Below, piece after piece: positions 13,931 to 61,650 of a stretch of 64,000 nt of DNA. A model generated the notes under the pieces. That model saw only the letters and a list, made by a program, of their open reading frames with translations, had not been told where the DNA came from and searched no databases. This stretch comes from Leptasterias polaris. Taxonomy: Eukaryota; Echinodermata; Asteroidea; Forcipulatida; Asteriidae. The stretch lies in the NCBI GenBank assembly GCA_037783415.1, contig JAZGTN010000178.1:930001-994000 (forward strand). The letters run 5' to 3'. The stretch's first letter is position 1. Each line of letters starts with the position of its first letter. A program made the position numbers and the translations under genes.

Positions 13931-16900
13931 TCAGGCTGAAGGGCTGGTCTGACGAGTGGAACGATGCACGGGAGGGGTGTGCAAGTCGGGGGTGGGGGCC
14001 GAAGGGAGGGGTGCTGTGGCAGGGATGGGATGCTCCTTGTGTCCAGGGGCGTTGTGAGGCAGGAGGGCCCGAAGAGCTCGGGGGACAGGGCCAGCGGCTA
14101 CCGGGCGCTGAGGTGAGTCTGGGTGGAAGTTTGTTAGGGGAGGAGGCGTCTGGATGACTGGTGGTAGTGCTGGCAGGCCTGGTGAGTCGTCCGCAGTGTC
14201 GGAGGGATCAGTGCGTGGCGGGTGAGGCTTGGTAGAAGGCGGCAGGACAGGGCTGCGAGATGCAGGTGTTGCCACCTTGGCTGGAGGAATCAAGACTGCT
14301 GCTGGGCCGGGGGCCATAGCCAAAGGCGCACGGGGTAGGACGGGCGTATACTTGCGTAGGAATTTTCTGTTACGAAGTGTGACACGTCCAGAGCCATCCA
14401 CTCTCACGACATATTGGTCAAACTGGCGCACCTCAACCACGATACCGGTCTTGTCCCATTTGGTGGGGCTGGGGCCTGTCTGGTTTTGGATGCGGACACA
14501 GTCCCCAACGACTAGTGGGGGAAGGACACGTGTGTGTTGGGAAAGGCGCTCAGCAGTACGCATATGGCGGTTGCGCAGGGCCTCTTCCCGCGAGAGGAGG
14601 GTCTCCTTCCATGTCGTGTGGGGTTGGTACTTGCCAGGATGAATGGGGATGAAGTCTCTAATGGGTCGTCCGAAGATGCACATGGCTGGAGAGAGGTGCG
14701 TGTCGCGGTCAGGGGTGTTGCGGTACTGGAGCATGGCCCTCTGGAACGCGTCTGTGTTCAGTGAGCCATTGGCGTCTGTGTTGTCTGTAATGAGGCGTTT
14801 CACAGTTTTTACTCCCACTTCTGCACGGCAATTGCTGTGGGGGAAGGCGACCGATGACATGCGATGGGTCACACCCCAATGGCGCAAGAATGTGGTTGTT
14901 GTGCTAGACTTGAACTCAGGGCCACCGTCGGATGTTAGTTCGTCACTGATGCCGTAGGTAACAAAGATGCGACGCAGGGCAAAAATAAGTCCGGCCGCAC
15001 CATTAGCAGATTCTTCCACAATTGGCCAGTTGCTGTATCTATCCACAGCCACCAAGTAGTGCCGGCCACGGTAGTGGAAGTAGTCGGACACAAGGCACTG
15101 GAATGGGTAGGCTGGGTTGAGTGGAGGGGTGGGGGGTGCGTTCGGCTGTGAGGGTGCCATGCGGTTGCATGATGAGCAGCGTGCCCGCATCTCTGTAATA
15201 GCAGGTGTCATACCTGGCCAGAAGAATGATGATTCCGCCCGTGAACACATTTGTGAGACACCCTGATGAGCTGAGTGCAGGGCCTGAAGTATGCGATCGC
15301 GGAGGGATGGGGGGATGACGATGCGGTCGTTGTAGAGGACTACCCCGTCAAAACTGGTCAGGCCGTCACGAAACTGGTGATACTGGCGGAGTTCAGGAGG
15401 GAGGTCACCACGGAGCACAGGGAAGTCATCAATGAGCTCAATCAGTCTTGACATGGAGGGGTCACTGACTGTAGCAAGGCGGACGTTATCCCACGTAACT
15501 GACTTAATCACTGCAGTGGGAGGTGAGGTCGCCTGGGAGCAAACATGAGCGGAGTCCTGATCGAGTGTGCGAAGGGCCTTGAGGAAGGAGTGTGGCAGCT
15601 CAAACGTGGGGAGCTGAGTGTGGGGGTTGAGTACGGTTGCAACATCATCTGGGAGGGTCAACGGCGTTGGCTTGCCAACAGGGTGGCGAGAGACGGCGTC
15701 GGCTGCAGCGTGGCGTACGCCGGGTATGTGAACGACGCGGAAGCGGTAGCGAAGAGACTTCTCTTTGAGGTTGCGCAGGCGAGGGTTGGGTATGTCGTTG
15801 AGGCAGCGGTCGCCGAATATTTTCAGGAGGGGCTTGTGATCCACTGCAACGATGAGGTCAGAGCAGCCAAGTGTGAAGTGACGTGCCTTGTCGAGTGCAT
15901 CAACAACTGCTAGGGCCTCCCCCTCCACTGGGGCATAGCGGGATTCAGCCCCCGAAGTGAAGCGACTTCCGACGAGGGTAATTTTCCAACCAGTCTTACA
16001 GCAAAAGGGGTTGGAGGAAGAGCAGGTACAGTGCTTCTGGAACAGCCAGAACCCAAGACCCTCTTTGCTCCAGTCAGTGGCGAGGCAAGTCGGCTTGGTC
16101 TTGTCGAAGATCTCCACCCCCTTATGGATCTCATTGATGATCAGGGACTTAGACTCCTCGAAGAGACGGTCCAATTGGTCTGTCCAGATGAAGCGGGTGC
16201 CCTGTTTGAGGAGTTGGCGGAAGGGCAGCATTCGTTCAGTGGCGGCAAAGGCGTATGAGACCTGGTTGACCAGGCCAAACCAGCTGCGGACATCAGTGAT
16301 GTTGTGGGGGGTAGGGAAGTTCTGGATGGCCTCAAGATAGCGAGGGCAGGGACGTACAGTGGTTGGGGTGAGTTCGAAGCCCGCGAATTCCACTGTTGTC
16401 TTGGCAAATATGAACTTGGAGGGGTTCAGTGTGACGCCGTTACGGCCACAGATGTCTAGCCATTCAGCTGCCTGGAAGAATGCCTCCTCAATCGTGTCAG
16501 ACCACATAAGGGTGTCGTCTACGCACTTGGTTTTCCGTGGGATGTCTGAAACGATCTCGTCGAAACGGCGGCTGTAACCGTCTCCCGAGGCGATGTAGCC
16601 TTGTGGGGCAACTCGGTACCGATAGCGACCCCATGGAGTGATGAATGTTGTGAGGTGGCGGTCTCGTTCATCAAGGGCGATGCTGTGGTAGCCATTCCAT
16701 GCATCAAAGACGGTCTTGCGTGTGTGAGGGGGTACTGTACGTGCTTGGTGGAAGGGTGACTGGGTGTGGTGTGTCTCACGGAGAGCATGGCGGTTAAGTG
16801 GTTGGAGGTCAACTGTCCGCGTTGGCTTGCCTGACTTCTTGGGGCAGATCACCATTTTGTGGCACCAAGTAACGGGTGTGCCGACAGGGACTGGTTCAAG

Positions 16901-32701: not shown

Positions 32702-33935
32702 GTTGGCTTGCCAACAGGGTGGCGAGAGACGGCGTCGGCTGCAGCGTGGCGTACGCCGGGTATGTGAACGACGCGGAAGCGGTAGCGAAGAGACTTCTCT
32801 TTGAGGTTGCGCAGGCGAGGGTTGGGTATGTCGTTGAGGCAGCGGTCGCCGAATGTTTTCAGGAGGGGCTTGTGATCCACTGCAACGATGAGGTCAGAGC
32901 AGCCAAGTGTGAAGTGACGTGCCTTGTCGAGTGCATCAACAACTGCTAGGGCCTCCCCCTCCACTGGGGCATAGCGGGATTCAGCCCCCGAAGTGAAGCG
33001 ACTTCCGACGAGGGTAATTTTCCAACCAGTCTTACAGCAAAAGGGGTTGGAGGAAGAGCAGGTACAGTGCTTCTGGAACAGCCAGAACCCAAGACCCTCT
33101 TTGCTCCAGTCAGTGGCGAGGCAAGTCGGCTTGGTCTTGTCGAAGATCTCCACCCCCTTATGGATCTCATTGATGATCAGGGACTTAGACTCCTCGAAGA
33201 GACGGTCCAATTGGTCTGTCCAGATGAAGCGGGTGCCCTGTTTGAGGAGTTGGCGGAAGGGCAGCATTCGTTCAGTGGCGGCAAAGGCGTATGAGACCTG
33301 GTTGACCAGGCCAAACCAGCTGCGGACATCAGTGATGTTGTGGGGGGTAGGGAAGTTCTGGATGGCCTCAAGATAGCGAGGGCAGGGACGTACAGTGGTT
33401 GGGGTGAGTTCGAAGCCCGCGAATTCCACTGTTGTCTTGGCAAATATGAACTTGGAGGGGTTCAGTGTGACGCCGTTACGGCCACAGATGTCTAGCCATT
33501 CAACTGCCTGGAAGAATGCCTCCTCAATCGTGTCAGACCACATAAGGGTGTCGTCTACGCACTTGGTTTTCCGTGGGATGTCTGAAACGATCTCGTCGAA
33601 ACGGCGGCTGTAACCGTCTCCCGAGGCGATGTAGCCTTGTGGGGCAACTCGGTACCGATAGCGACCCCATGGAGTGATGAATGTTGTGAGGTGGCGGTCT
33701 CGTTCATCAAGGGCGATGCTGTGGTAGCCATTCCATGCATCAAAGACGGTCTTGCGTGTGTGAGGGGGTACTGTACGTGCTTGGTGGAAGGGTGACTGGG
33801 TGTGGTGTGTCTCACGGAGAGCATGGCGGTTAAGTGGTTGGAGGTCAACTGTCCGCCTTGGCTTGCCTGACTTCTTGGGGCAGATCACCATTTTGTGGCA
33901 CCAAGTAACGGGTGTGCCGACAGGGACTGGTTCAA
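32702..33935 (-). pseudogene. pol: gypsy pol, unit 3 copy, 3' part of a gene split by EnSpm
   Basis: This RT-RNase H segment corresponds to 24184-25417. Its 5' part lies beyond the EnSpm insertion at 46049-46247. The downstream fusion frame into the 2A exon is preserved (to 32095). Confidence 0.88.
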
Positions 33936-33949
33936 CCCTTACACAAATT

Positions 33950-34395
33950 TACACAAGCTTGCCGGCAAGCTTGTAACAAGCTTGCCGGCAAGCTTGCCTG
34001 CAAGCTGGTAACTAGCTTGTATCGTTCCAAATATTTAAATGAGGGCAAGCTTGCAGCAAGCTTGCCGGCAAGCTTGTTGCGAGCTTGCCTGCGAGCTTGC
34101 CGGCAAGCTTGCGCAAAATTAGATTTTTAGTTACTAGCTTGCAGCAAGCTTGCAGCAAGCTTGCCGACAAGCTTGTCGACAAGCTTGTGAAGCTGGTAAC
34201 TAGCTTGTTTTGTTCCAAATATGTAAATTAGGGCAAGCTTGTAGGCAAGCTTGTAGGCAAGCTTTAGATATGTGATACAAATCTATAGTAATACTAGCTT
34301 GCAGCAAGGTTGCAGCAAGCTTGCAGACTAATCAAAGCTTGCCAGCACAAGCTTGCAGTAAGCTTGTGGCAGACTTGTCCACAAGCTTGCCACTT
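33950..34395. repeat. Left subterminal CAAGCTTG array
   Basis: By eye about 20 AAGCTT hexamers occur in ~450 bp, mostly within CAAGCTTG(C) and often joined as 'gcaagcttgccggcaagcttg'. They are packed directly inside the left end. Subterminal repeats of this kind are the protein-binding sites in plant En/Spm. Confidence 0.9.
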
Positions 34396-34537
34396 GCCAG
34401 CAATTAATTCAGTCATTAGTCAATTAATTCACACTGCACTAAAATATTAATAGGAACAAATGTGTAGTTTTATTATCTGTAGTTGGGTTATTTCCCTACA
34501 GCGTTGAAAGTATTAAAAAAACGACTTTGCATAGATG

Positions 34538-34950
34538 AAATTTAAACTCTTGACATACGTCAATCCTGAGATATTTGCCTTTAAACAAATAAATTATTTA
34601 TTTGTAAAAACCTAACACAACTGCAAAAACTTGAGATAAACTGTCTATATACTGCTGGGAACACATACGTTATTGCGACGTGGCATAATATGGGCATGTC
34701 GTTGGCAAACCTTCAAATTTGGCAAACCATGAACCAGTTTTTTAACTCATGCCGACTCTGAAAAACATTTCTCTATGAAGAACTGCACTAGCTTTGGTTG
34801 TGTACAGTATCTCACTCTATCTCTTTCTCTCGGACATAAAAATGAAGTGTGTGGTATATTGGCAAGCATCTGAATAACAAAATTTAAACTCTTGACATAC
34901 ATCAATCCTGAGATAATTGCCTTTAAAAAAAAGTTATTTATTTATAAAAA
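34538..34950. repeat. Direct repeat pair (~75 bp) downstream of the BEN gene
   Basis: 'atttaaactcttgacata' to 'tttataaaaa' occurs at about 34540-34613 and 34880-34950 with a few substitutions. The second copy contains AATAAA on the minus strand (near 34940), a plausible poly(A) signal for the BEN gene. The rest of 34400-35008 is non-coding. Confidence 0.65.
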
Positions 34951-35008
34951 TACACTGAAGTAAAAACCATTTATTTGGTTCGGTACCCTGGTACCTGTCA
35001 TGGTCCCT

Positions 35009-38000
35009 TTACTGTGCAGATGATGTTTTCCTCTGTAGTGCTCGTCTACATGTGGCACACTTTTGATTTATTTTATCGTTGAATTCCTTCGCACTCATAC
35101 AAGGTTGGCCACTTGGAAGCCTATATCGTCGAAGTACGCACTCTAGAAAACAAATGGCAAGAGAAGTTTGTGCAATAGTCAATATTTAAAAATGAAAGAT
35201 CATTGGTACAGCTATCACCATGAGCCAAACTAGAAAAGTTACCAATTTTGTATAACTCAGATGGTACAGAAACCTGACTTTATAGACCATGTCAGGTGTT
35301 TACCAACAAAGATGGAGCATGTCAGGTGTTTACCAACAAAGATGGAGTGTCATGGCCGAGTGGTTAGTGCGTCGGACTCAAGCCCTGGTGGCCGAGTCAT
35401 CGGAGTGTGGGTTCGAATCCCACAAGATTAAGTGGCATATTTAAATAGTTTCACTCTCTTTAAACTCCAACAAATTGAAAAGAAAAAATACCTTTAATTT
35501 CATGCAACTTCCTTGCATCTAGTGGGACATTCGGTGTGTTAGTCTTCCTATTGACAGCCTGTCTGGATCCACAGGCATTGCCTTGTGCGAGCCTGATTTC
35601 TCCAAAGACTGCTAAAAGCAGAGCGTACAGCAGTGTCTCCTTACATTTACCCTTGGCGAGAGCCGCTCTCCTGTCCTGCTCAGTCAAAAGGTGTATCCCT
35701 CCTGGATACAGTGGGGTTAATGTCTGTGAAAAAAATTAAAGTTGCAATAGGCATGCTCAATAAGTAAGTAAAGATGTGTTTATTGACAACGTCTTGTCTA
35801 TTGCAACCTGTTCACAGTGGACGGGTAAAGTACAATTTTGGACAGACATGAATGGGCGGCAACCAGTCATTTCACTTGCAAATGGTGCCTGCTGTGCCTG
35901 TTTTTTGCAAAGTTTTTTTAAAAATAATGACAGATTGTGCAGAATTGTGATCTTGTTAGGCTATTTGTGATAGAGATTACATAAGATATGGTTTGTAATT
36001 GTAGTGTAAATGCAGTGGCTGCACATCATAAAATGAACTAAAGGGAGGTTACATCATTGGAAGAAATGAAAACAAAAATTACTTTCAAGTTACTACAAAA
36101 TAACTTACTTCACTGAAAGTACATATTATTAAGTATCCAGTAAAATTGTTTTGAGAAGTGTTATTTCATTTTAAAGAAAAATGCAAAATGTTGTAGGCAT
36201 TTTGAAGCGGTGGTCAGCTGACCATCGTTGTTTGCACAATATGAACCATGCACAAAATAACTGATAAAATGGAAACCGTTATTTGCCGATTTGATGATAT
36301 TTTCACAGGTTCGTTTTGTGATGTGTATTTTGAAAAGTAGATGATTGGAATGAATTAAATCTTCAAAAAACAAATGATGCAGCCTCCCTTTAATAGTAGA
36401 TATCTTAAATTATAATCAAAAACAAAATAATAGAGGGTAAAAAGTATGGGGCTGTTCATAGTAAGCCAAGTTAGTCACTTACCTCATCAGATGTTGGAGT
36501 CATGGAGGTGTCTTCGGCTGGTGGGGATGTAGGGATGTCTTGGCCGGTGGTCGTTGCTGTTGGAAGCTTGAGTTTCGATTGGAACACTTGTTTTTGTGGC
36601 TGACTGCTGGTGGCTGGCAAGGTGGATGGCAAGGTGGATGGCAAAGTGGCCTTTGGTGGCTGGCTTGTGGGTTGGGCTGCTGGCTGGCTTGTGGATGGCG
36701 CTGGCTTTGTGGATTGCCACAATTGAAGGACTGAGGTTACCTCTTGCATTAGCTTGATTTTTTTGGGGGTGATAGCTAAAACAAAACAAAAACATCAGGT
36801 ATTTAATATATTTATTTAAGATGTATTGTCCGTGCTAAAGCCAATTTTACCTTCAAAATGAATCCAATTGTTAAATTGCTATTTTTGTAAGATTACCAAA
36901 GTTATGAACTTTCAAATGAGATATTGCACGAAAACATACATCCGACGGTTTTGAAACATGGGCGTGTCGTATTCAACTTCGGCGCAGTGCGCCTTCATCA
37001 ATGCACTAAAAAATAAACATCCCAGATGTTTTAATTCAGTGGGTTTACAAATGCTGTCCATCAGAAATACGACACCAACTCCCAATTTCTTTAAAATCCC
37101 AAAATGTGAATAAGAATTCACAGACCTGTGTAATGGACATTAAGTTTCATTACAAGGAAACAAAATTCTTACCAACACTGAAGGGAAGGTCTGACACAGA
37201 TCTTTGGCGCAGCAGGAGAATTTCCTCATCTTTGTGCTTAAGCTGGTCCTTTAACTGGCTTATTTTATTATCCCTTTCTGCCAGCTGCCATTTCAGATTG
37301 AAAATGACCCCGTCTTCCCCCATGCTCGGACCGGGGTTCATCTCAGCTGCTACTGGTGGCTGCATAAAGAGAGAAAACAACATCAAAAATAAATAAATAA
37401 AGGATTTATTTATTATGATATGTCGTACTTCAATTGAGGAACAATTACTTTTAGTTCCTGATTCAAAAATACAAAGTGTAAGTTCATCGGCTGTTGGAAG
37501 ATTAGAATGCAGTTCAATTAATTTTGTTTGCCATTCATTCAAGATGTCAGCTTTCGCATGTAAATTAAGTGAAAAACCAGTAATTTTTGTCATGTTTTGA
37601 ACAACATAAGACTTTAAGAGTGCCAATGGAAGGTGAAAAGCTACTCATTTAATACATAAATCATGTGGTTATAAACTTGTGTGCCATCTTGGGAAAAAGC
37701 CCCAATCTTGAAAAAAATATTAAAATAAAAATGGTGCCTTCTCTGTCGTTTTTCAAAAAAGCCAGGATGAGAATTATTTTTAAAGCTTTTATTTAAGAAA
37801 AGTTTCTCGTCCGTTTTTTTTTAAAGGAGGGAGGCCGGCCCCTTGTTTCCAAGATGGTGATTTTGTCCAAGATGGCATTCCCCCCCCCAGTTTTGACCAC
37901 CTGATTTATAATAAACCAGCTTTTACCTTCCATTGTTCCAAATATGAAAAAATGAGAGGTTTTGCTAAATTGTATGTTTCCCAATCAATGTATAATTGTT

Positions 38001-40102
38001 TGTTTTTACAGGCATAGGCCTACATTTAAAAACAAAATAAAAAATAAAAACATTTTTGCAGGCAGCCATGAAACAGATGAGGGTGGGGACGAGAAACTGT
38101 ACCTTACCGGTGAGCATCTCTTTGCACAAAGCTTTCTGAACAGTCAACTTGTCCAGCGTCGCCTGTAGCTTTGCTGCTTTCGTAGTCTTTATGTCTGATG
38201 TCGTCGTCTTCATCTTCACCCCCAATGTAGCCTTCCCTTTCAGAGCAGTCTTCCCTTTCAGAGCAGTCTTTTTGATGTTCTTCGCCGTTGTTGGTTGTGA
38301 ATGTTGAGGCTGCCCTGTCTCTTCACGTTCTTCCTCATCCAGCTCCATGGCCTCTTCTTCTTGATTGGTGGTTAAGAAGTCTGCCATTAAAACAGGTTGC
38401 TTCCTGATGCGTTTGGTCATGTTGGTTGATGGGTCCTCTATTATGATGTCACCAGTTGCACATCCATAACCATCAGCCTTTTCAGAACATTCCTCCTCCA
38501 TCAAGTGCAGAAATTTGCCCTGCTCATCCTGCAGCTCTTTCTTATTGTCTGTGAAGTATAATAAAGGAAGTGGATATTAATATTATGCCGGCAACGCCAT
38601 TCTTTTTTATAGTATGCCGGCAACTGTCTCTAATTATAATTAGCATTTTTCTACCAATTCCTGGAGAGGAATAACAGCCCTGATACTTCAGCTTGAAAGG
38701 GGCAAGGCAGTTTTGCCTTGACTTTTTGTAAAAATTTAGGGCACCAAGGCAATTTTCAAAAATTCCAAAGGGCATCAAGGCGATTGCAAAAATTTGCAAA
38801 GGGCACCAAGGCAATTTTTTGAAAAAACACATATTTCATAAATAATACAATCTTACACAATAAATACACATCGGGTCATCGGCGGACGCATCACCCAATT
38901 CCCAAGCCAAAACAAACAAGCCGGCTGCATGCTGCCTGCATTTAACAACAACTTCTTACACGCTCCTTCTCGGTTGTTTTTCTTTTTCGCACGGTCCCAC
39001 CTGCTGGGTCGAATACTCAGCGCGTACGAGGTTGAAACAATGTCTGGGTTACCGACTCGGATGGGCTGTTCACGCGCAGTGCTGCATACACGTGACGTCG
39101 ACGGTCGAAGCTTATTTTACCAGACTATTTCACCGTACATGTACATACATGATATATACATACACGTGCATGCTCAATGGTTTTCGTCGGTGCGTGCGTG
39201 TACTGTGTGATGAGAGGTAAGTTGTTCGTTGCGTTAATTTTGTGTGTGGGATCTGCAGATAGATCACACAGACATCGGAAGTTTTGACAGTCGCTATATT
39301 TCAGCTCATTTTCGGTGTCATTTTTTGAGATTTATGTCGCATGCAGAATATCGTTTAATATATTTTTTTCAGGAGAAAGGGCACGGCGGCAATAACAAAA
39401 AAAGGGCACGGCAACAATTGCCGTGGAAAGTGGGATTTTTAAAGGGCATTGCCATGATTGCGGCAATCGGTTGGGGCATCGACGGCAATTGCCGTCGTTG
39501 CCGTCGTGAAGTATCAGGGCTGGCGAATATAAAAAAAAGGGAAATAAAGCCCAACATCCATTAAAAATCCCTTAATGCAACAAGCACGTAAAATTGGTCA
39601 ATCAGAGACAGTTGCCGGCATAAGTACGTTTACTAAAAAAAGAATGCCATTGCCGGCATTAATATCCACTGCCTAGGCCCTATATTATTTATAATAAACA
39701 AAATGTAGAATTCAGGGGAGGCCAGGCATAGACAGTGTTAGACTAATTATTAATTAACGTTTTACTTATTTTTTTAGGCTAATGCTTACTCTAGGCTCAA
39801 ACATTAACAATTTCATTTGAACAAAAGTTTTTGAAACGACTGAGTTATAACTTACCACTTATCCGAAGGACTTTCCCAGGATATTTCTTGCCACCTTGGA
39901 ACCGAATGTCAGAAATGGTTCCCTCCTTTCTCACATTTTCACAAACGCTGGCTTCGTTCTCTATACTGATTTTTTTGTCGTCGATCCAATAAACCAAACA
40001 CCACGTTTTGGTTTTGGATCGCGATTCCCCATCGACATTAGACAGCTGTGGCTTCTTCAGAGCAAACAACTCCTTTACAAAGCTAGAGCGAATGTTCGCC
40101 AT
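35009..40102 (-). CDS. BEN-domain protein of the EnSpm-like element (~507 aa, six exons)
   Basis: Predicted exons: 40102-39856, 38548-38108, 37349-37173, 36775-36483, 35723-35492 and 35142-35009. Every intron is GT-AG, and phases match throughout (1, 1, 1, 0, 1), giving 1524 nt with a terminal TAA. The N-terminus ('KTWCLVYWIDDKKISI', 'KKYPGKVLRISG') looks like a small beta domain. Exon 2 is acidic, then Lys-rich with 'KGKTALKGK' repeats. Exon 3 is coiled coil. Exon 4 is Pro/Ser/Thr-rich. Exons 5-6 match a BEN domain ('LYPGGIHLLTEQDRRAAL', 'ALLLAVFG', 'VPLDARKLHEIKG'). BEN domains bind DNA, often palindromic sites, as in Drosophila Insensitive. The protein probably binds the CAAGCTTG arrays (inference). 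The acceptor of exon 3 has alternatives. Confidence 0.8.
35288..35347. repeat. 30-bp tandem duplication
   Basis: 'catgtcaggtgtttaccaac' plus ten more bases occurs twice in direct succession within the last BEN intron, adjoining a SINE head. Confidence 0.85.
35344..35432 (+). repeat. tRNA-Leu-like SINE head
   Basis: 'ATGGCCGAGTGGTTAG' (A box) and 'GGGTTCGAATCCC' (B box) are spaced as in a class II tRNA, with 'actCAAgcc' where a Leu anticodon would be. The ends do not form an acceptor stem, so it is a SINE head rather than a working tRNA gene. Confidence 0.65.
38569..39671. mobile_element. MITE with ~63-bp TIRs in BEN intron 1
   Basis: AGTGGATATTAAT followed by 'atgccggcaa' and 'tgccggcaactgtctct' at 38569-38632 is mirrored in complement at 39607-39671. 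A different element (38675-39522) is nested inside it. The left end lies only 20 bp from the splice acceptor of BEN exon 2. Confidence 0.75.
38675..39522. mobile_element. hAT-like non-autonomous element, nested in the MITE
   Basis: The TIR CAGCCCTGATACTTCA (38675) pairs with TGAAGTATCAGGGCTG (to 39522). Subterminal blocks 'gggcaccaaggcaattttt' repeat near the left end. The left 200 bp, the block from 'gggtcatcggcggacgcat' and the right ~200 bp match the element at 60188-61650, but the transposase part is replaced by other sequence. The target duplication is degraded. Confidence 0.75.
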
Positions 40103-40886
40103 AACAAAGATTTCAAAGGTCACGAAAGGTTAAAAATACAAAAGATATGAACGAACAAAATATTATTATATCAATGTAATGATGCGAGAATCAAATGCAC
40201 CGAGTCTTGCCTTGATGAAAGCGTGGCTTGGACGTGATGCATGCTGGGATAATGCGGCCACGCGGGGGATGACGTATATAACATGGATAGGGGTTAACAC
40301 TATGGACAAATTAAACAAAAAATGCGTTACCGTATTTTGAATACCAAAATTCCTTTTTTTATTTTTAATATGTTCCGTTATGTAATCTATAAACTGTTAA
40401 ATAATGGAGGAAAGCGTCACACGATTAAATATTTAAAGAAACTCCTTCAGTGCACACCCCCAAGAAAGTGGTCAATCCCAAGATAATTTACACGTGACAT
40501 CCGGCCCGCGAAATTGACAGACTTTGTGGGGGCCCAGTCATCATACCCAGTGCATGCATGCAGTACTCGAGCTCTCTCGCACGTACATGCCAACTCGACT
40601 CGTTGTCGACTCGTCTTAGTCATCTACGAAAACTTGCGTACGAGTTGGGTCCGGGTTCTATTTCTATGGTGTATGTACGGCATGTCTATGTACGAGTTGG
40701 TCTGGGTGTGCATAGTCGTTCTTATTTTCATGACGGGACGACGTGTCTGCAGGAGAGCGGCGCGACACCGCGTCGTTGCATGTGTACTGCGAGAAATTAG
40801 GACCTTCAGATTATACTGACCATTTTTGTCAATTATTGTTGTTGAAATTACATTCAAAGTCTACATTTCATCACGAAATCTGCACA
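40103..40886. promoter_or_regulatory. Shared divergent promoter region of the BEN and Tnp2 genes
   Basis: 784 bp separate the two start codons, which face away from each other. The region must hold both 5' UTRs and promoters. No clear TATA box stands out. Confidence 0.55.
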
Positions 40887-43800
40887 ATGAGTTGCACGGA
40901 CAGGAAGAGGAGAGGACCCTATGCTTTCTCTCACTCCAAAGGAAATTTGTCTGGAGAAACGAGGTCAATGCCTAAAGTAACAAAATGGCGTTCTCAACGA
41001 CGTGCTCAACAGAATGCCGATGACGATGCAAGTAAGTAAAAAATGGAGGGGGAAATGGAACATGATTGGATGAAATGTCAGAAAATAATTATACTTAGGA
41101 AATAATTTGGCAGGGTTCCGCCACTGAATAGATATATGGCCTAGGCCTATGGGGGGAGGCTATGTGAAAAGTCTGTGGCTGGGCCTGGGATGGGGGAAGT
41201 CGCGGAAAAATTTAGACTTGTTGAAGTCTTTTGGCATGTTTCAATGTTTGGCCTAAAAAACATGATTATGAAAAAAAGATGAACAAAAATACACGTTTAA
41301 ATCACCAAATGAATTAACAAAGCCTGGTTTGAAACTGAAGTGTCCTGGGTGTTCATACAATTCATAACTTGTAAAAAGGCCTAGGCCCCCTACCCGCACC
41401 ATAATGGAGGGCCGGGTCTGTCAATTGTCAACCAGTCAGTGTGACTGTGAGTCAGTTGTAACTTGTCTACTACGGGGGGGGGGGGGGGGGGGGGGGGGCA
41501 GGTGACATGTAAATCACTGTCCCAGACCTTCGTTTTTAACAATACGAGGAGCTCGTTTAACCACTCTCCTGGAAATTACTCAGGAGCTCAATTCGAGCTC
41601 CTCAGATCACTCTCCTGAGTCCTGGGATTGTCCAGGAGCTCAAGGGTGCTTGACTTTTTACAACAGTTGATAAAGTCAATTATATGGTTCAGTTTAACAA
41701 CCAAACACATGGTAGAAACATTTTGGGGTTTGTTAAATAAAACATGATGAAAAGCACCATCCCGGTACAGTACCAATGAGGTAGTTTTGGCTGCGAGTAG
41801 TGGCACCATTGAATGACCATTAATGTTGACCATGCCAAATTATTTCTTATTTCTGCACTTGGAATTTCACCATGAAATTCAACAAGACCCGGGGTTCGGT
41901 AAAGACCAGACCGAACACGATTAATAATTTGTTGAAAATAAATATGCTGAAGTAAAAAAGAATTAAAACATGCGGAACTAACATTGTTAGTTCTGCATGT
42001 TTATGGTCTTTCTCCATGTGAATGTATTCATGAATGTTCATGAATACATTACAAAGTTATATTTGTAGGCCCCTACATTTTTTTTTCTTCAAAATGAAAC
42101 GCACCTTTGACATGTTTGATAATTTATCACATTATTTATACTTATAGGCTACTAAATCTGTTTGATGTTTGTTAGGAATTTGGGGTAATTTTTTATTTTT
42201 ATTGAATATTGGGGGGGGGGAATTAAATGGTTTTAGTAATGAACCTATGCTGCTTCTTCCAGTAGGAATCCCTCCTGCAGAGTTTCAATTATTTAACTAA
42301 ATGCATGTTTTCTTTTCTCAATTTGATGTACAGCAGCAGACTTGCATGATCCAAGAACAAGTCAGTCCACAAGTGGAACTGCTTGGTACGAAGATGATAC
42401 AACGTGTCCACTACAATCAGCCGGACAAGACAGGCCGAACCTGTCAAAAGACATGAATCCACCTGTGTGTCTTGATCATCTGTCAGCACTGGCCGCATCT
42501 GGAACTGCAGCATTGGAATCGGTTGACTGTGAACCACAGGTAGATTTACATGTACAAGGATGTACAGAAACCCCAGACATTGATCTTGATTGTCTGCCAA
42601 TTCATTCCACACCTCATTATGTGGAACCGTGTACGGACTTGCAGTATATGCATAATTCTACTACCGGTTGCAACATCAATGACACTGAAGATATGTGGAA
42701 TGATGCCCAAGAGCAAGTGTATGATAACCTTGATTGGTACGAAGCCCAAGAGCCACTTGATGACAATTTGTCAGATGATGAGGGCGAGTCATTTGCCACA
42801 TGTGGGGAAAGTGAATGTTGCGATGATTCACCTCTGTATGATGGTGCTCCCATAACATTGGCAGAGAGCATGCTCCTCATCCTTACCCTGTGTATCAGAC
42901 ATAGTTTAACTGGAAGTTGCCTGGTTGATATTCTCACTCTCGTATCGCTTCACTGTCAGCAGCCCAATCTGTGCAAAACATCACTTCATTTATTCCGGAA
43001 ATATTTTTCAGATTTATCAATGCCCCTCAAATTCCATAAATTCTGTACCAAGTGCCAATTCTTAGTTGAAAACGACAATGTTAATTGTTCATGTTGTAAT
43101 GCTGTTTTTGGCAGTGACCCGAAATCCCTTTCCTATTTCATTGAAATACCTTTTTTAGCACAGCTAGAGACGCTTTTCAAGCGAAAAGAATTTTGTGAAG
43201 ATCTTGAATACCGTTTCAAACGTAACAAAAAGGTACAGGGAAATATAGAAGATATATATGATGGAAATCTCTATAGACGGTTCTCATCACCAGGGGGTTT
43301 TCTTAATAATAAGCATAATATCTCTTTTATGTGGTACACAGATGGTGTTCCTACATTTAAATCATCTCGTTTTTCAATATGGCCATTGTATTTCGCTATT
43401 AATGAATTGCCTCCAAACAAGAGAATGCATAAAGAAAATATGATTATTGCTGGTATATGGTATGGAGAATCAAAACCATGTATGGGGACATTTCTGAAAC
43501 CATTTCATGCAACTTTGAAAAATATCTTTGATGGGGTGACTATAAGAAATTATTTGAATAACGAAATTAACGTGCGTGGAATGTTGTTGTGCGGAACATG
43601 CGATATGCCAGCAAAGTGCATGGTCCTCAATATGAACCAATTCAATGGTTTGTATGGCTGTCCAAGATGTGTCCAACCTGGACAGGTAATTGCAGTAGGT
43701 AGAGGACATGCTAGAACATTTCCTGTAGATGTTAGTAATTTTGATGGTCCAAAAAGAACTCACGAAGAAACCTTGCAGTCGGCTCAAGAAGCTTTTCAAA

Positions 43801-45089
43801 CCGGACATCCTGTTCTGGGAGTGAAAGGGCCCTCGTGGTTTTTGTATCAAATGCCAGATATTATTCGTGGTACTGCACTAGATTGGATGCATCAAGTTTT
43901 GCTGGGAATTGTCAGAAGAATGCTTTTTCTTTGGTTTGACAGCAGTAACTCTTCAGAACCCTTTTCAATTTCTCATCTTATAGATGTAGTTGATAAACGA
44001 CTTCATAACATTCAACCTGCTAATTTTATTACCAGAGTTCCTCGGAGCATAAAAGAACATAGAAAGTATTGGAAGGCATCGGAATGTAGAGCCTGGTTGT
44101 TATATTATTCGTTGCCAGTTTTGACAGGATTATTGCCCGAAATTTTTTTCCAACATTATCTGCTTTTGGTTGAAGCCATCGTCTTGTTGAATGGAGATTC
44201 CATTTCACCAGATACTGTAGATCACTGCGAAGCAGTGCTGAGAAACTTCTGTATGATGCATGCCAGTCTCTATTCACAAAAGCAAATGACATCAAATGTA
44301 CACCAGTTATTACATTTATGTGATGTTGTGCGCGATCTCGGACCTTTGTGGGTTTACTCATGTTTTTCATTTGAATCTTTGAATGGCGAAATATTGTCTC
44401 TTTTCCATGGAACACAAAAGATTGACTTACAGATAGCTAGTAATATTTGTACATTATTGAAAGAACCTCTCTTGAAACTGCAGCTAAAACGTGGGACACC
44501 CGTTTCAACATTTTATTTGTCTATGAAAAGTCGCATTTCCTGTAGTTCGAAGAGAGAACAGATATGTGATGGCATTTACACCCTAGGTCTACTAAAAAAC
44601 TACTGTTTAAGTCGAGACGAGAAGGTTGCATTGTATTCATATTTTGGTTATCACTGCACAGGCACATTGTACAAGTGTGTTGCATTCTCTCGTATTTTAA
44701 AGCAGAACATTGTCATATGCTCCAAATTATTTACCCTACCAGTCCGCAGAAATTCTTATACTGTGTCATTTATGCACAGTAATGCGGAGAGATATGGTCA
44801 CGTTAATAAATTCATAAAAATAACACCTGTTGGTTGTGCATGTGAAATTATCTGCTCATGTTCTGTTTACATGTCCTTTGTGGAAATGTTTGATGAATCA
44901 TCATACAAAATGTCTACAGATGACATTACCTCTGCTACTGTGGATCACATCGTCCCATGTAAACGAAATATGCAGTCAATGTTGGCAGTACCTGTTAAAG
45001 CCATTTTAAATTTATGTGTGTATGTAGATATCAAAGATATTGATACAGTGTTTGTTGCAAAGTGTCCAAACACCGTTGAAGGAGATTAG
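40887..45089 (+). CDS. Tnp2-type (Transposase_21) transposase, two exons (~965 aa)
   Basis: Exon 1, 40887-41031, starts with ATG (MSCTDRKRR...) and ends at a GTAAGT donor in phase 1. The intron runs to a tacag acceptor at 42333 (or cag at 42336). Exon 2 continues in phase to the stop at 45089. Key blocks: a zinc-ribbon-like 'FCTKCQ...CSCC' near residue 280; 'YTDGVPTFKSSRFSIWPL' near 383 (first catalytic Asp); 'FAINELPP' and 'GIWYGESKP'; 'CGTCDMPAKC' near 472; and 'GLYGCPRC' near 492. This order is diagnostic of Tnp2/Transposase_21, the EnSpm/CACTA transposase. AATAAA follows at 45401. No frame break is visible, and the length is typical for the animal family. It pairs with the divergent BEN gene inside the same insertion. 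Confidence 0.92.
41474..41498. repeat. Poly-G tract (G25) in the Tnp2 intron
   Basis: A run of 25 G in the intron; the length is probably assembly-uncertain. Confidence 0.8.
41967..42001. repeat. Hairpin in the Tnp2 intron
   Basis: 'aacatgcggaactaac' and 'gttagttctgcatgtt' pair with one mismatch around a short loop. Confidence 0.75.
42021..42050. repeat. Perfect 30-bp palindrome in the Tnp2 intron
   Basis: 14-bp perfect arms ('aatgtattcatgaa' and complement) lie around a TG centre, 19 bases after the preceding hairpin. Confidence 0.85.
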
Positions 45090-45400
45090 AAAGAATACAC
45101 ACTGACTTCAAATTAACGCTACCTTTTAATTGACAGAAATGTAAAGGAGCTGATCCCATATTTTGAAGTCTCTACGATATAGATGATTGGTGTTTGCCAT
45201 CTCAATTTGGATTTCAACAATATTTAATCAACTTTGTAGACTTTGTACTTGTCCTTTAACAGATATTTTAATTTAATGCAGATCTGCATTTGAAAGTTTG
45301 TTAGAATTAGAGCTCTAATGTACATGTATGCTGCTTAAGTACACGTTTTACTGTTGTATTACATGAATGAACTTTGGTTTTTACAATAACAATGTTTCTT

Positions 45401-45406
45401 AATAAA
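45401..45406 (+). terminator. Poly(A) signal of the Tnp2 gene
   Basis: AATAAA lies 312 bases after the stop codon. It is the first clear signal downstream. The interval 45090-45614 has no other feature. Confidence 0.6.
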
Positions 45407-45614
45407 ATATTGTCAAATTCTAACTGAACTGTTCTTGTTTGATTGCTGCATTGATTTTATATGGTAAGCGCTTACATTTTTTTTTTTTATGGGGGTGGGC
45501 GGGCTGCATAAGGAATGAAATTTTGATTTTCATGTGTATAGCTGCATGCAAGAACATTTTGTTTGCGATTTGTCTATTCCATTACATTAACAGAACATAT
45601 TATGTACATATATC

Positions 45615-46035
45615 GATGGCAAGCTTGCACACTGGCAAGCTTGTATTAATAAAGCACTGTGCAAGCTTGCACTGGCCATTGCTACAAGCCATGATGCAGT
45701 CGTTTATCAGCTTGTTAAACAGATTGCAAGCTAACCAAGAAAGCATGCAAGCATGCTGCAAGCTTGCAAGCTTGTCAAAAAAACATGAAAGCTTGCCAAG
45801 AAACCATGCAAGCTTGCACAAAAGATTGCAAGCTTGCCAAAAAATTTGCAAGCTTGCATGAAGACAAACGTGTTTCATATAAGCTTGCTGCAAGCTTGCT
45901 GCAAGCTTGCACGGGCTCGCAAGATTGCAAGGAGCTTGCAGCTAGCTTGCTGAAATTATTGCAAGCTCATTTGAGCTTGCAGCAAGCTCAATGAGATTGT
46001 CACAAGCTTAAAACTAGCTTGCCGCAAGCTTGATT
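45615..46035. repeat. Right subterminal CAAGCTTG array
   Basis: By eye about 14 AAGCTT hexamers occur in ~420 bp, with variants such as 'aagcatgc' and 'gagcttgc'. The array mirrors the one at the left end. Confidence 0.9.
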
Positions 46036-46048
46036 TTCCGTAAGGGAA

Positions 46049-51267: not shown

Positions 51268-51627
51268 TTAAGGGTCCATGGTTAATTTTAGAGCAGTTTT
51301 ACGCCCTGTCATTTTGTGTGCATTCCAGAATCTAGGCCTGGCTGGGGGAACGGACCGGGGACATTTGGTTGGTGCCTTTATGGTCAGTACAGCATCCTTC
51401 TTCAGGATATACATGTAGTATGCTTTCAATCCAAGTTGTGACTTCAGTTTGGATTGGGTATCCTGACAATCATCAGTAAAATGGGCCTTACAAACCAAAC
51501 CCCACTTTGATAACTTGAAGTCCGACCTCAATGTCTCCACAAATGTCAACCACTGCTTCCGAACTTGCTTGTTTTGGGGAAATTTGAAGAAATTTGACTC
51601 TTTCGCTACGGCATTGTTTTGCAACAA
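51268..51627 (-). pseudogene. THAP-domain fragment
   Basis: The minus strand reads 'NFFKFPQNKQVRKQWLTF', 'LVCKAHFTDDC' and 'LKKDAVLTI', the central and C-terminal parts of a C2CH THAP zinc finger (FxFP, W, C..HF, AVPTI-like). The N-terminal CxxC half is missing. Its place is taken by the 63-bp satellite array, whose edge reads into the frame. THAP domains are DNA-binding modules of P-, ISL2EU- and Kolobok-type transposases and host regulators. No partner transposase is adjacent. Confidence 0.75.
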
Positions 51628-54313
51628 AGCATTGCACAGTCAGTCCTGCAGTCAAATGATTTTTACTGCATGCTGTGACGTAAACAACAAAGCATTGCAC
51701 AGTCAGTCCTGCAGTAAAATGATTTTTACTGCATGCTGTGACGTAAACAACAAAGCATTGCACAGTCAGTCCTGCAGTAAAATGATTTTTACTGCATGCT
51801 GTGACGTAAACAACAAAGCATTGCACAGTCAGTCCTGCAGTAAAATGATTTTTACTGCATGCTGTGACGTAAACAACAAAGCATTGCACAGTCAGTCCTG
51901 CAGTAAAATGATTTTTACTGCATGCTGTGACGTAAACAACAAAGCATTGCACAGTCAGTCCTGCAGTAAAATGATTTTTACTGCATGCTGTGACGTAAAC
52001 AACAAAGCATTGCACAGTCAGTCCTGCAGTAAAATGATTTTTACTGCATGCTGTGACGTAAACAACAAAGCATTGCACAGTCAGTCCTGCAGTAAAAGGA
52101 TTTTTACTGCATGCTGTGACGTAAACAACAAAGCATTGCACAGTCAGTCCTGCAGTAAAATGATTTTTACTGCATGCTGTGACGTAAACAACAAAGCATT
52201 GCACAGTCAGTCCTGCAGTAAAAGGATTTTTACTGCATGCTGTGACGTAAACAACAAAGCATTGCACAGTCAGTCCTGCAGTAAAATGATTTTTACTGCA
52301 TGCTGTGACGTAAACAACAAAGCATTGCACAGTCAGTCCTGCAGTAAAAGGATTTTTACTGCATGCTGTGACGTAAACAACAAAGCATTGCACAGTCAGT
52401 CCTGCAGTAAAATGATTTTTACTGCATGCTGTGACGTAAACAACAAAGCATTGCACAGTCAGTCCTGCAGTAAAATGATTTTTACTGCATGCTGTGACGT
52501 AAACAACAAAGCATTGCACAGTCAGTCCTGCAGTAAAATGATTTTTACTGCATGCTGTGACGTAAACAACAAAGCATTGCACAGTCAGTCCTGCAGTAAA
52601 ATGATTTTTACTGCATGCTGTGACGTAAACAACAAAGCATAGCACAGTCAGTCCTGCAGTAAAATGATTTTTACTGCATGCTGTGACGTAAACAACAAAG
52701 CATTGCACAGTCAGTCCTGCAGTAAAATGATTTTTACTGCATGCTGTGACGTAAACAACAAAGCATTGCACAGTCAGTCCTGCAGTAAAATGATTTTTAC
52801 TGCATGCTGTGACGTAAACAACAAAGCATTGCACAGTCAGTCCTGCAGTAAAATGATTTTTACTGCATGCTGTGACGTAAACAACAAAGCATTGCACAGT
52901 CAGTCCTGCAGTAAAATGATTTTTACTGCATGCTGTGACGTAAACAACAAAGCATTGCACAGTCAGTCCTGCAGTAAAATGATTTTTACTGCATGCTGTG
53001 ACGTAAACAACAAAGCATTGCACAGTCAGTCCTGCAGTAAAATGATTTTTACTGCATGCTGTGACGTAAACAACAAAGCATTGCACAGTCAGTCCTGCAG
53101 TAAAATGATTTTTACTGCATGCTGTGACGTAAACAACAAAGCATTGCACAGTCAGTCCTGCAGTAAAATGATTTTTACTGCATGCTGTGACGTAAACAAC
53201 AAAGCATTGCACAGTCAGTCCTGCAGTAAAATGATTTTTACTGCATGCTGTGACGTAAACAACAAAGCATTGCACAGTCAGTCCTGCAGTAAAATGATTT
53301 TTACTGCATGCTGTGACGTAAACAACAAAGCATTGCACAGTCAGTCCTGCAGTAAAATGATTTTTACTGCATGCTGTGACGTAAACAACAAAGCATTGCA
53401 CAGTCAGTCCTGCAGTAAAATGATTTTTACTGCATGCTGTGACGTAAACAACAAAGCATTGCACAGTCAGTCCTGCAGTAAAATGATTTTTACTGCATGC
53501 TGTGACGTAAACAACAAAGCATTGCACAGTCAGTCCTGCAGTAAAATGATTTTTACTGCATGCTGTGACGTAAACAACAAAGCATTGCACAGTCAGTCCT
53601 GCAGTAAAATGATTTTTACTGCATGCTGTGACGTAAACAACAAAGCATTGCACAGTCAGTCCTGCAGTAAAATGATTTTTACTGCATGCTGTGACGTAAA
53701 CAACAAAGCATTGCACAGTCAGTCCTGCAGTAAAATGATTTTTACTGCATGCTGTGACGTAAACAACAAAGCATTGCACAGTCAGTCCTGCAGTAAAATG
53801 ATTTTTACTGCATGCTGTGACGTAAACAACAAAGCATTGCACAGTCAGTCCTGCAGTAAAATGATTTTTACTGCATGCTGTGACGTAAACAACAAAGCAT
53901 TGCACAGTCAGTCCTGCAGTAAAATGATTTTTACTGCATGCTGTGACGTAAACAACAAAGCATTGCACAGTCAGTCCTGCAGTAAAATGATTTTTACTGC
54001 ATGCTGTGACGTAAACAACAAAGCATTGCACAGTCAGTCCTGCAGTAAAATGATTTTTACTGCATGCTGTGACGTAAACAACAAAGCATTGCACAGTCAG
54101 TCCTGCAGTAAAATGATTTTTACTGCATGCTGTGACGTAAACAACAAAGCATTGCACAGTCAGTCCTGCAGTAAAATGATTTTTACTGCATGCTGTGACG
54201 TAAACAACAAAGCATTGCACAGTCAGTCCTGCAGTAAAATGATTTTTACTGCATGCTGTGACGTAAACAACAAAGCATTGCACAGTCAGTCCTGCAGTAA
54301 AATGATTTTTACT
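51622..54313. repeat. 63-bp satellite array, ~42 monomers
   Basis: The monomer runs 'acaacaaagcattgcacagt' - 'cagtcctgcagtaaaatgat' - 'ttttactgcatgctgtgacg' - 'taa'. Copies are almost identical. Variants: 'aaaaggatt' in three monomers spaced two units apart (near 52095, 52221 and 52347), one 'catagcac' near 52640 and an irregular first unit. Each monomer holds a hairpin with 10-bp perfect arms (TGCAGTAAAA / TTTTACTGCA, loop TGAT) and a CRE-like TGACGTAA. Because 63 is a multiple of three, long frames stay open on both strands (931, 553 and 375 codons); these are not genes. Confidence 0.97.
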
Positions 54314-54988
54314 CTGCTAATCTGACGGCTATATTGCTAAATGATACACCAAAATGAAGCTGACATTGTCACCAGTGTGAATAAAGGATCACCATACTTG
54401 TATTTATTAATAAAAAAATATGGCAACACTCCAATTAAGACAAATTATGTTTATGATATGTAAATAAACAAGAGTTTTTCATGGATATGAGCTAATAACA
54501 CAATTTCTTTTATAGTGGACCATTGTTTATTTCATTTGTAGTGAGTGGTGGTATTCTTACCAATCATATTTGCAAATTTGACTCAATTTGAATAATGTTT
54601 GCCCGAGTTATGGGTTTTTTAATCCAATGGTACAAAACACAAGTGGGCAACTAATTTGCATAATCATTTCCTGTTTGTTGGGTAGTGTACATACAGGTAT
54701 CATATGACCTGTCTTTTTTGTGTTGCATTGCAGTTATTTCATGAGAATCATCAATTCACATAAACATCACTGGTGAATTACATTCTAATCACAACATTTA
54801 TATTATGAATACTGATTATTTGATATTGGAATGTACAAATATTACCTTTTTCACAGTTCAATCAGGAAAAAAACAGTGAATTCTCGTGAATAAAAACCCC
54901 CAAAAAGTATCAAATGTTCCTTTAATGTCAAAGGTAGAAGCAAACATATTTGGTACCCAATAGTTCAAGTTCACATACTGTTCAGACT
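54314..54988. other. Non-coding stretch
   Basis: AT-rich sequence between the satellite and the LINE 3' end. Nothing recognised. Confidence 0.5.
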
Positions 54989-60187: not shown

Positions 60188-61650
60188 CAGCCCTGATACT
60201 TCAGCTTGAAAGGGGCAAGGCAGTTTTGCCTTGACTTTTTGTAAAAATTTAGGGCACCAAGGCAATTTTCAAAAATTCCAAAGGGCATCAAGGCGATTGC
60301 AAAAATTTGCAAAGGGCACCAAGGCAATTTTTGAAAAAACACATATTTCATAAATAATACAATCTTACACAATAAATACACACCACTCAGTTATTCTGTT
60401 CTGCTTACTTCCTTCATGACATACTGTACACGTAGTTTATTAAATCTCTTGGCACGTCCCACACCAAACTCGCTTTACGAAAACACCATCTGCTGTCGCT
60501 TCATGTTTCAACCAGTCAAAGTTCCACGACTGCACTGTTGTCACTTTAACACGGCCAGCAGGTTTCTTGGTTGACTTGTCAGAAGTGGAAGAAGTATCTT
60601 TGTCAAGATGGTCCACTACTGATGTCAATACAGATCCAACTGCAAGGTTGTCCTTGTTAGATAGGTCATTGACGACACTTGATGAGGCTTTCTCAACATC
60701 TGCATCAGCATCCGATACCAGGATGGGGTTAGGTCTCCTGGGAAATTTAAGAGTAGCTTGTTGTGTTAAATAAGGAAAACCACAATGTTATTGTTTAATT
60801 GTAAACAGTCTGATTCTGTAAGCAATCCTTTTTTATTAGAAATATCATAATTTGAAATTTAAATTTGTATTAAAAACACGTTTTCTTTGAATCAAACTAT
60901 AAATAAATATTGATAAGACCTGTAGCAAATTGTTGATGTAGTTTAATCCAGTTCCAGTTTTCTTAATTTTAAACAAGTTTTATGCATTCAATAATTTTAA
61001 ACCAGATTTTTCACTAACCAGAAATCTAAACTATTAGTATTATTATTATTGGGCAATTTATAAAAAGAAATGGATCTTTAATTACCGGTTTTTGTTTGGC
61101 ATGTCGTTCAACAAGGTTGCTAAAATATCTACAGACATGTAATGTATGCAAATCGTGCCTTAATAAAATACCAAACACGAAAAAATAAAAACGAAAAAAA
61201 CTGACATAAAAAAAACTTACCTGAAAAAGGTGTCCAATTTGCAGCATTTTGATGCTGCAACATTTAGTTGGGATAATTTTTTTTGCTTGGTTCTTTCCTG
61301 ATACGGCATGTTGAAGCTTCTGAATATCAAAAAAAGTAACTAACTTCGGACTGTCGGGTCATCGGCGGACGCATCACCCAAGCCAAAACAAACAAGCCGG
61401 CTGCATGCTGCCTGCATTTAACAACAACTTCTTACACACTCCTTATTTTCGGTGTCATTTTTTGAGATTTATGTCGCATGCAGAATATCGTTTAATATAT
61501 TTTTTTCAGGAGAAAGGGCACGGCGGCAATAACAAAAAAAGGGCACGGCAACAATTGCCGTGGAAAGTGGGATTTTTAAAGGGCATTGCGGCAATCGGTT
61601 GGGGCATCGACGGCAATTACCGTCGTTGCCGTCGTGAAGTATCAGGGCTG
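60188..61650. mobile_element. hAT-like element with transposase remnant
   Basis: The TIRs CAGCCCTGATACTTCA (60188) and complement (to 61650) are flanked by a 7-bp direct repeat AATTCAT (60181-60187 and 61651-61657). hAT elements normally give 8 bp, so the call is provisional. The ends are nearly identical to 38675-39522. This copy keeps internal sequence with a transposase-like exon (60440-60745) that the smaller one lacks, so it is closer to the parental element. Confidence 0.8.
60440..60745 (-). pseudogene. hAT-type transposase N-terminal exon
   Basis: An open minus-strand stretch ends with 'VQSWNFDWLKHEATADG' and 'VKRVWCGTCQE', which resembles the degenerate BED-like zinc-finger start of hAT-type transposases (W..W..CxxC). 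No catalytic core follows, so the element is defective. Confidence 0.5.

Follow-up and report, generated by a model that had tools for sequence, protein, structure and literature searches.

A two-gene CACTA-type transposon in the asteroid Leptasterias polaris pairs a Tnp2 transposase with a divergent BEN-domain protein and family-specific terminal arrays

We analyzed a 64,000-bp stretch of the genome of Leptasterias polaris (assembly GCA_037783415.1, contig JAZGTN010000178.1, positions 930,001 to 994,000 of the forward strand), hereafter the window (C178:930001-994000, within a genome of 629.7 Mb in 334 contigs). It contains a 12,111-bp insertion with two divergent genes, one encoding a Tnp2 transposase and the other a protein that ends in a BEN domain, and an array of AAGCTT sites inside each end. 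The features, in window positions, are:

33934-33935, no strand: left AA target-site duplication, from comparison with sister units
33936-46046, plus strand: whole element, 12,111 bp, from the uninterrupted site in both sister units
33936-33942, plus strand: left terminal inverted repeat CCCTTAC, 7 bp, perfect
33955-34388, no strand: left array, 20 AAGCTT sites by count, 17 of them inside CAAGCTTG
35009-40102, minus strand: BEN-protein gene, six predicted exons, 508 aa, from reading frames, splice sites, Pfam and homologue alignment
35009-35723, minus strand: exons 5 and 6, the BEN domain (residues 418-492), interrupted by a phase-1 intron
40103-40886, no strand: intergenic region separating the start codons of the two divergent genes
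40887-45089, plus strand: Tnp2 gene, predicted exons 40887-41031 and 42334-45089 (GT-AG), 966 aa, from reading frames and splice sites
45621-46031, no strand: right array, 14 AAGCTT sites by count, 11 of them inside CAAGCTTG
46040-46046, minus strand: right terminal inverted repeat GTAAGGG, 7 bp, perfect
46047-46048, no strand: right AA target-site duplication, from comparison with sister units

The borders of the element were defined by two intact copies of its target. An 8518-bp unit is present three times in tandem in the window (one shared word starts at 16875, 25393, and 33911), and its reading frame encodes reverse transcriptase and RNase H domains. The insert splits the third unit at TTCAA^GGACACC; in units 1 and 2 the empty site is intact, with the flanks contiguous (TTCAAGGACACC) at 16875 and 25393. 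The insertion is young, because the tandem units are 99.6-99.9% alike in pairwise comparisons. The initial annotation had described these borders, the AA duplication and the CCCTTAC ends, about 20 and 14 AAGCTT sites at the two ends, a two-exon Tnp2 gene, and a six-exon minus-strand gene with consistent phases ending in a BEN domain; the empty sites bore out the first group, and the rest held up in the analyses described below. Three near-identical reverse transcriptase/RNase H units in tandem (16875-50627) are an unusual arrangement for a retroelement.

Both ends of the element are dense in AAGCTT. There were 20 sites between 33955 and 34383 and 14 between 45621 and 46026, far more than in shuffled sequence (mean of about 1.5 per 900-bp end; maximum of 6 on the left and 5 on the right in 100 shuffles). 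The 10.3 kb between the ends contained five.

The plus-strand gene encodes a Transposase_21 protein. Its frame is intact across the predicted intron, and it matched Pfam Transposase_21 (PF02992) with 49.7 bits (E = 3.5e-13; cut-off 28.6). There were 278 homologues at E ≤ 0.001, and the named ones among the 120 listed are from animals. Three residues, D339, D426, and E683 (numbering of the 920-aa open reading frame), were invariant across 10 aligned Tnp2 proteins, and we take them to be the catalytic residues. A stretch of 393 bp in intron 1 (41110-41502), ending in a run of G, is missing from two other copies of the element, C30 and C44.

The minus-strand gene encodes a BEN-domain protein and starts 785 bp from Tnp2. 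Its predicted exons (39856-40102, 38108-38548, 37173-37352, 36483-36775, 35492-35723, and 35009-35142) keep an intact frame, and the predicted introns are all GT-AG with agreeing phases. The 508-aa protein has an N-terminal part, a predicted coiled coil, a P/T-rich linker, and the C-terminal BEN domain. Its match to Pfam BEN (PF10523) covers profile positions 2-75 of 76 and scored 18.4 bits, under the cut-off of 23.2. Two homologues, P0002 and P0003, exceeded the cut-off (28.8 and 34.1 bits) and align with the window protein along the whole domain and over exon junctions 3/4, 4/5, and 5/6 of its five, and the assignment as BEN therefore stands. The closest named BEN homologue is from Asterias rubens. 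A predicted structure of the homologue P0126 (pLDDT of 43-86 in the BEN part and up to 93 in the coiled-coil helix) retrieved with Foldseek, as its top ten matches, BEN domains solved with DNA (NACC1, Bsg25A, Insv, BEND6, BANP, and BEND3; E = 0.004-0.46, probability 0.80-1.00). A sequence profile likewise retrieved NACC1 (E = 0.04).

The gene pair and the arrays are shared by other copies in the genome. In a search of the same genome with Tnp2, in which 50 of 273 candidates were scored, identity to the window copy was 100% for C30 and C44, 99% for C173, 72% for C49, and 83% for C197, which is broken. We refer to these copies as family A. Target duplications were AC for C44, CA for C197, and TG for C173; the right tip of C30 is without the last GGG, and C49 has one changed base in its left tip and no clear duplication. 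The initial annotation had proposed looking for the same pair elsewhere, and we found the BEN gene in all four further family A copies read (C44, C30, C173, and C49), making five of five with the gene and array when the window copy is included and C197 is left outside the count. The BEN region was 99.9% identical to that of the window over 5986 bp in C44 and 99.93% over 7174 bp in C30. For the pieces of C49 that matched, the BEN protein was 47-71% identical, and more of its exons were recognized by eye; in C173 exons 1, 5, and 6 were 48-79% identical. Between the window and C49 BEN genes, codon positions 1, 2, and 3 differed at 0.38, 0.28, and 0.62 of sites and 52 of 70 four-fold sites had changed, as expected under purifying selection.

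Repeats of the GTTCCAAA-ATGCAAAT type are common to the left arrays of A1, A2, and A3, and lie in the window at about 34033 and 34221. They are a possible promoter or enhancer, and ATGCAAAT in the A2 and A3 left arrays is presumably the POU octamer.

The C173 copy appears, from its sequence, to be a chimera in which the BEN gene and the left array were exchanged as one block. This 13,489-bp element matches the window element (95.8% identity) only to the right of window position 40833, which lies near the right edge of the intergenic region, 54 bp upstream of the start codon of Tnp2; the match runs on to the right tip. Its left part had no blastn match to the window element at 1e-20. Changes at four-fold sites were correspondingly split, with 3 of 380 in Tnp2 and 33 of 45 in BEN. 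There were 24 AAGCTT sites in its left end and 17 in its right, and GCAAGCTTGC was present 15 times on the left and 12 times on the right. Both arrays thus retain GCAAGCTTGC despite the block swap, indicating that the motif is conserved and not its surroundings.

A related copy with BEN and array seems to be present in another species. The Asterias rubens protein of LOC117292407 (P0001) contains BEN exons 4-5, followed by a stretch resembling a translated left array, and then a SET domain. It is 84% identical to the window protein over 89 residues of exon 4, and the array-like stretch is 62% identical over 52 columns (E = 6e-9). P0001 itself could be a transposon-host fusion gene or a gene-prediction artefact.

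The same plan recurs in distant Tnp2 families. We read nine families: A, B (C75), C (C136), D (C58:4.35 Mb), E (C58:4.72 Mb), F (C170), G (C49:2.31 Mb), H (C265), and I (C3). Families B, C, F, and I were picked by Tnp2 score, the initial BEN scan being blank nearby, and H, which has no BEN near, was added after the pairing scan described below. Seven of the nine (A, B, C, D, E, G, and I), with Tnp2 identity down to 30%, have the order array, BEN on the minus strand, Tnp2 on the plus strand, array. Three of the five families without an initial nearby match (B, C, and I) proved to carry BEN. Scores over the Pfam cut-off, some from a single exon, were 26.6 for B, 36.8 for D, 41.7 for E, 31.9 for G, 27.9 for I, and 23.8 (E = 0.026) for the family C copy at C160:864666, whose BEN match lies 6.7 kb upstream; C160 was placed in family C by its equal Transposase_21 score and its CCATGG sites. 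In C136 the C-terminal half of BEN was read by eye, without support from a hidden Markov model, and the N-terminal half was not found.

Each of the seven families has a private motif concentrated in its ends: GCAAGCTTGC in A, CTTATAAG in B, CCCATGGG in C, ACCATTG in D, TCCAATAGGAATTCC in E, CCAATTGG in G, and AACCAGTT in I. Counts in the left end, middle, and right end were 14/0/2 for B, 19/5/30 for C (as CCATGG), 6/0/15 for D (as TACCATTGA), 26/0/10 for E (as CCAATAGG), 9/0/7 for G, and 64/1/25 for I, and 100 shuffles of an end gave at most 6 for these motifs. Palindromic 6-mers were more frequent than in shuffles in A, B, C, and E, and barely so in G. Five families have CCCTTAC/GTAAGGG at both tips together with a 2-bp duplication (AA in A, AT in C, AG in D, CA in E, and GT in G). 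Two candidate motifs were rejected: the odd palindrome ACCATTSAATGGT did not occur in family D, where CATTSAATG is present on the left side only, and 14 of 18 ACATGT sites (the NAC1 site) in family B lie in the middle. Upstream of the family H Tnp2 on C265, frames resembling integrase and reverse transcriptase were seen by eye and are probably nested elements.

These counts bear on the idea that the arrays are simple tandem-repeat decay, or sites for a host factor unrelated to the BEN gene. The left array of D, which is mostly tandem repeat, would fit such an origin. However, the left halves of A1 and A3 cannot be aligned (blastn, 1e-20) and the palindrome is kept in both, and each of the seven families carries its motif at both ends, with few or no occurrences in between. 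We regard this explanation as extremely improbable.

BEN genes are upstream of and divergent from Tnp2 genes far more often than expected by chance. We compared 73 Tnp2 places (50 of 52 and 23 of 51 search rows, merged by hand with second pieces and repeats dropped) with all 77 Pfam BEN rows (E up to 10). A BEN match lay within 9 kb upstream in divergent orientation at 16 of the 73 places; there were none on the same strand within 9 kb, either upstream or downstream, and two downstream on the opposite strand. At 12 kb there were 17 upstream divergent pairs, compared to a mean of 0.6 and a maximum of 5 in 2000 random placements, and at 17 kb there were 20, with two downstream on each strand. 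Based on these counts, we ruled out that BEN is a chance neighbor of Tnp2. The BEN genes of the window and of family B escape this Pfam search, and because the window's own BEN is missing from the 77 rows, the real extent of pairing must be higher. A single contig, C58 (9.5 Mb, 1.5% of the genome), carries 25 of the 73 Tnp2 places and 17 of the 77 BEN matches and is possibly repeat-rich or sex-linked.

Two of the array motifs match published BEN binding sites. According to PMC6911014, Drosophila Insv binds TCCAATTGGA and variants TCYAATHRGAA, BEN-solo factors bind the symmetric CCAATTGG, and ELBA binds CCAATAAG. All 16 occurrences of CCAATTGG in family G are in the ends. TCYAATHRGAA has 28 of its 29 family E occurrences in the ends and one in the middle, occurs five times in the ends of family G, and is absent from A1, A2, A3, B, C, D, and I. 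The array motifs of E and G (TCCAATAGGA and CCAATTGG) match the Insv/ELBA site as published there. The comparison was made after the motifs had been seen, so the match is support and not a planned test; by our own arithmetic, the chance of CCAATTGG appearing in one of seven families is about 3% if a motif is random among the 256 8-base palindromes. Insv, ELBA, NACC1, BANP, and BEND6 resemble the proteins described here in combining a BEN domain with symmetric sites, in one case the very repeat of family G (CCAATTGG), but the Drosophila and vertebrate proteins are chromatin factors of the host and have not been described as products of transposons.

Certain transposases recognize the subterminal repeats of their own elements, and Tnp2 itself could bind the arrays, with BEN being a passenger captured once. 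The two families in which no BEN was detected, F and H, would be compatible with this, yet these families likewise have no two-sided arrays. In addition, BEN keeps its position and orientation across distant families and looks constrained, and two arrays match known BEN sites. We consider capture of a passenger very unlikely.

The window element belongs to the animal TRC branch of CACTA/EnSpm transposons. Like SmTRC1 and its relatives in Aedes and Tribolium, it has Transposase_21, a CCC- terminal inverted repeat, and a 2-bp duplication (PMC1636069). The D, D, and E positions are conserved in it as well. It has CCCTTAC tips and not CACTA, and a 2-bp and not a 3-bp duplication, in contrast to plant CACTA elements. 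The initial annotation had pointed out that the ends lack the canonical CACTA, and the CCCTTAC tips are indeed there; this is not special and we rejected it as a sign of novelty, as CCC ends and 2-bp duplications are standard in the animal CACTA elements described in the same source. For SmTRC1, a tandem-repeat region and a repeat inside the terminal inverted repeat are described, and the available text of PMC1636069 contains neither a BEN gene nor the word "subterminal". A search of the open literature, with Repbase and most subscription journals outside it, gave no paper among those listed that joins BEN with CACTA/EnSpm elements, and the available parts of PMC5704228, PMC11075544, and PMC7642931 do not make that link.

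The two-gene plan resembles that of maize En/Spm and plant CACTA elements, with a Tnp2-type transposase and a second DNA-binding protein. In maize, TNPA binds subterminal repeats, TNPD is the transposase, and both are needed; as here, plant elements have many subterminal repeats at both ends, and these vary between families (PMC2613891). The second protein differs: here it is a BEN protein from its own divergent gene, whereas En/Spm makes its proteins by alternative splicing of one transcript. A Pfam scan of the 508-aa protein, which involved no direct comparison to TnpA, returned only BEN and two weak coiled-coil matches.

Based on these results, we believe that the window element is probably a recently mobile, two-gene animal CACTA (En/Spm-type) transposon whose BEN protein binds the arrays and marks or pairs the ends for Tnp2. 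The BEN protein, which has a predicted coiled coil, would bind, as a dimer or multimer, the private repeats of its family close to each end. We infer that the bound protein would contact Tnp2, bring the two ends together, and be needed for transposition, with Tnp2, a DDE transposase, cutting at the common CCCTTAC tips. BEN would then do the job of TnpA in maize En/Spm with an apparently unrelated DNA-binding fold. The initial annotation had proposed that BEN is the animal counterpart of TnpA and binds palindromic arrays. The comparative side of this proposal fared well, with the plan found in six further families and two matches to known sites; binding is predicted from these comparisons, and families F and H, without BEN, fit it less well.

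The BEN protein might instead bind the arrays mainly as a regulator of transcription or chromatin, for self-repression or insulation or to oppose silencing, with Tnp2 alone recognizing and cutting the ends. Characterized BEN proteins function as repressors and boundary factors (PMC6911014), plant TnpA also has a regulatory role (PMC1636069 and PMC2613891), and the GTTCCAAA-ATGCAAAT-type motif of the A1, A2, and A3 left arrays could serve as a promoter or enhancer. However, the arrays are at both ends, whereas the two genes start near the center of the element, about 5-6 kb away from each end, and the CCCTTAC tip is identical in five families, which could not be distinguished by it alone. A mainly regulatory role is unlikely in our judgment, and we favor end recognition by BEN.

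Several observations weigh against end recognition by BEN. For 57 of the 73 Tnp2 places, the 9 kb upstream held no Pfam BEN match in divergent orientation, and the 16 pairs are not independent, several being copies of one family. For contigs whose length was not known, the largest observed coordinate stood in for it in the random placements, and loci D, E, and G were picked for a nearby BEN match. In the DNA fetched for families F and H, Tnp2 was present and neither BEN nor a two-sided array was found. The right side of family B holds just two CTTATAAG sites, palindromic 6-mers are not above shuffles in D and only just above in I, the D motif ACCATTG is an imperfect palindrome, and the center of the I motif AACCAGTT is non-palindromic. 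The family A motif CAAGCTTG has no match among the published BEN sites compared, which came from sources available in part. The P0126 model is weak (mean pLDDT of 48), and none of its Foldseek matches reached E ≤ 0.001.

The Tnp2-BEN pair either is old or arose more than once. A tree of 24 Tnp2 proteins groups families C, D, E, G, and I (together with H) in a well-supported clade and places A and B among mollusc, brachiopod, holothurian, and other proteins; the tree was rooted at its midpoint only and the exact place of B is weakly supported. BEN-bearing families are thus in separate parts of the tree. A broader proposal, which we put forward tentatively and hold to be doubtful, is that BEN is the ancestral end-recognition partner of animal CACTA elements, that families evolve new BEN specificity together with a new array while the tip stays constant, and that host Insv/ELBA and BEND proteins descend from transposon BEN proteins. 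If true, such descent would explain why host BEN factors bind short palindromes, and it gives these chromatin factors a testable origin. BEN is a candidate animal reader of subterminal repeats, tied to them by co-occurrence, layout, and a known motif in two families. Each family would provide a natural pair of BEN protein and DNA site, and one genome could serve as a set for learning how BEN proteins choose their sites.

A scan of viral contigs with Tnp2 gave no lead. The window element also carries a further element of its own:

38675-39522, no strand: passenger DNA element with ends CAGCCCTGATACTTCA/TGAAGTATCAGGGCTG, in intron 1 of the BEN gene

The C44 and C30 copies align with the window copy through this passenger, indicating that the transposon spreads it. 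A relative at 60188-61650 of the window matches at both end parts only. The window also contains a long satellite array of 63-bp repeats (about 51496-54440), with 43 in-register places, most of those shown being 99-100% alike.

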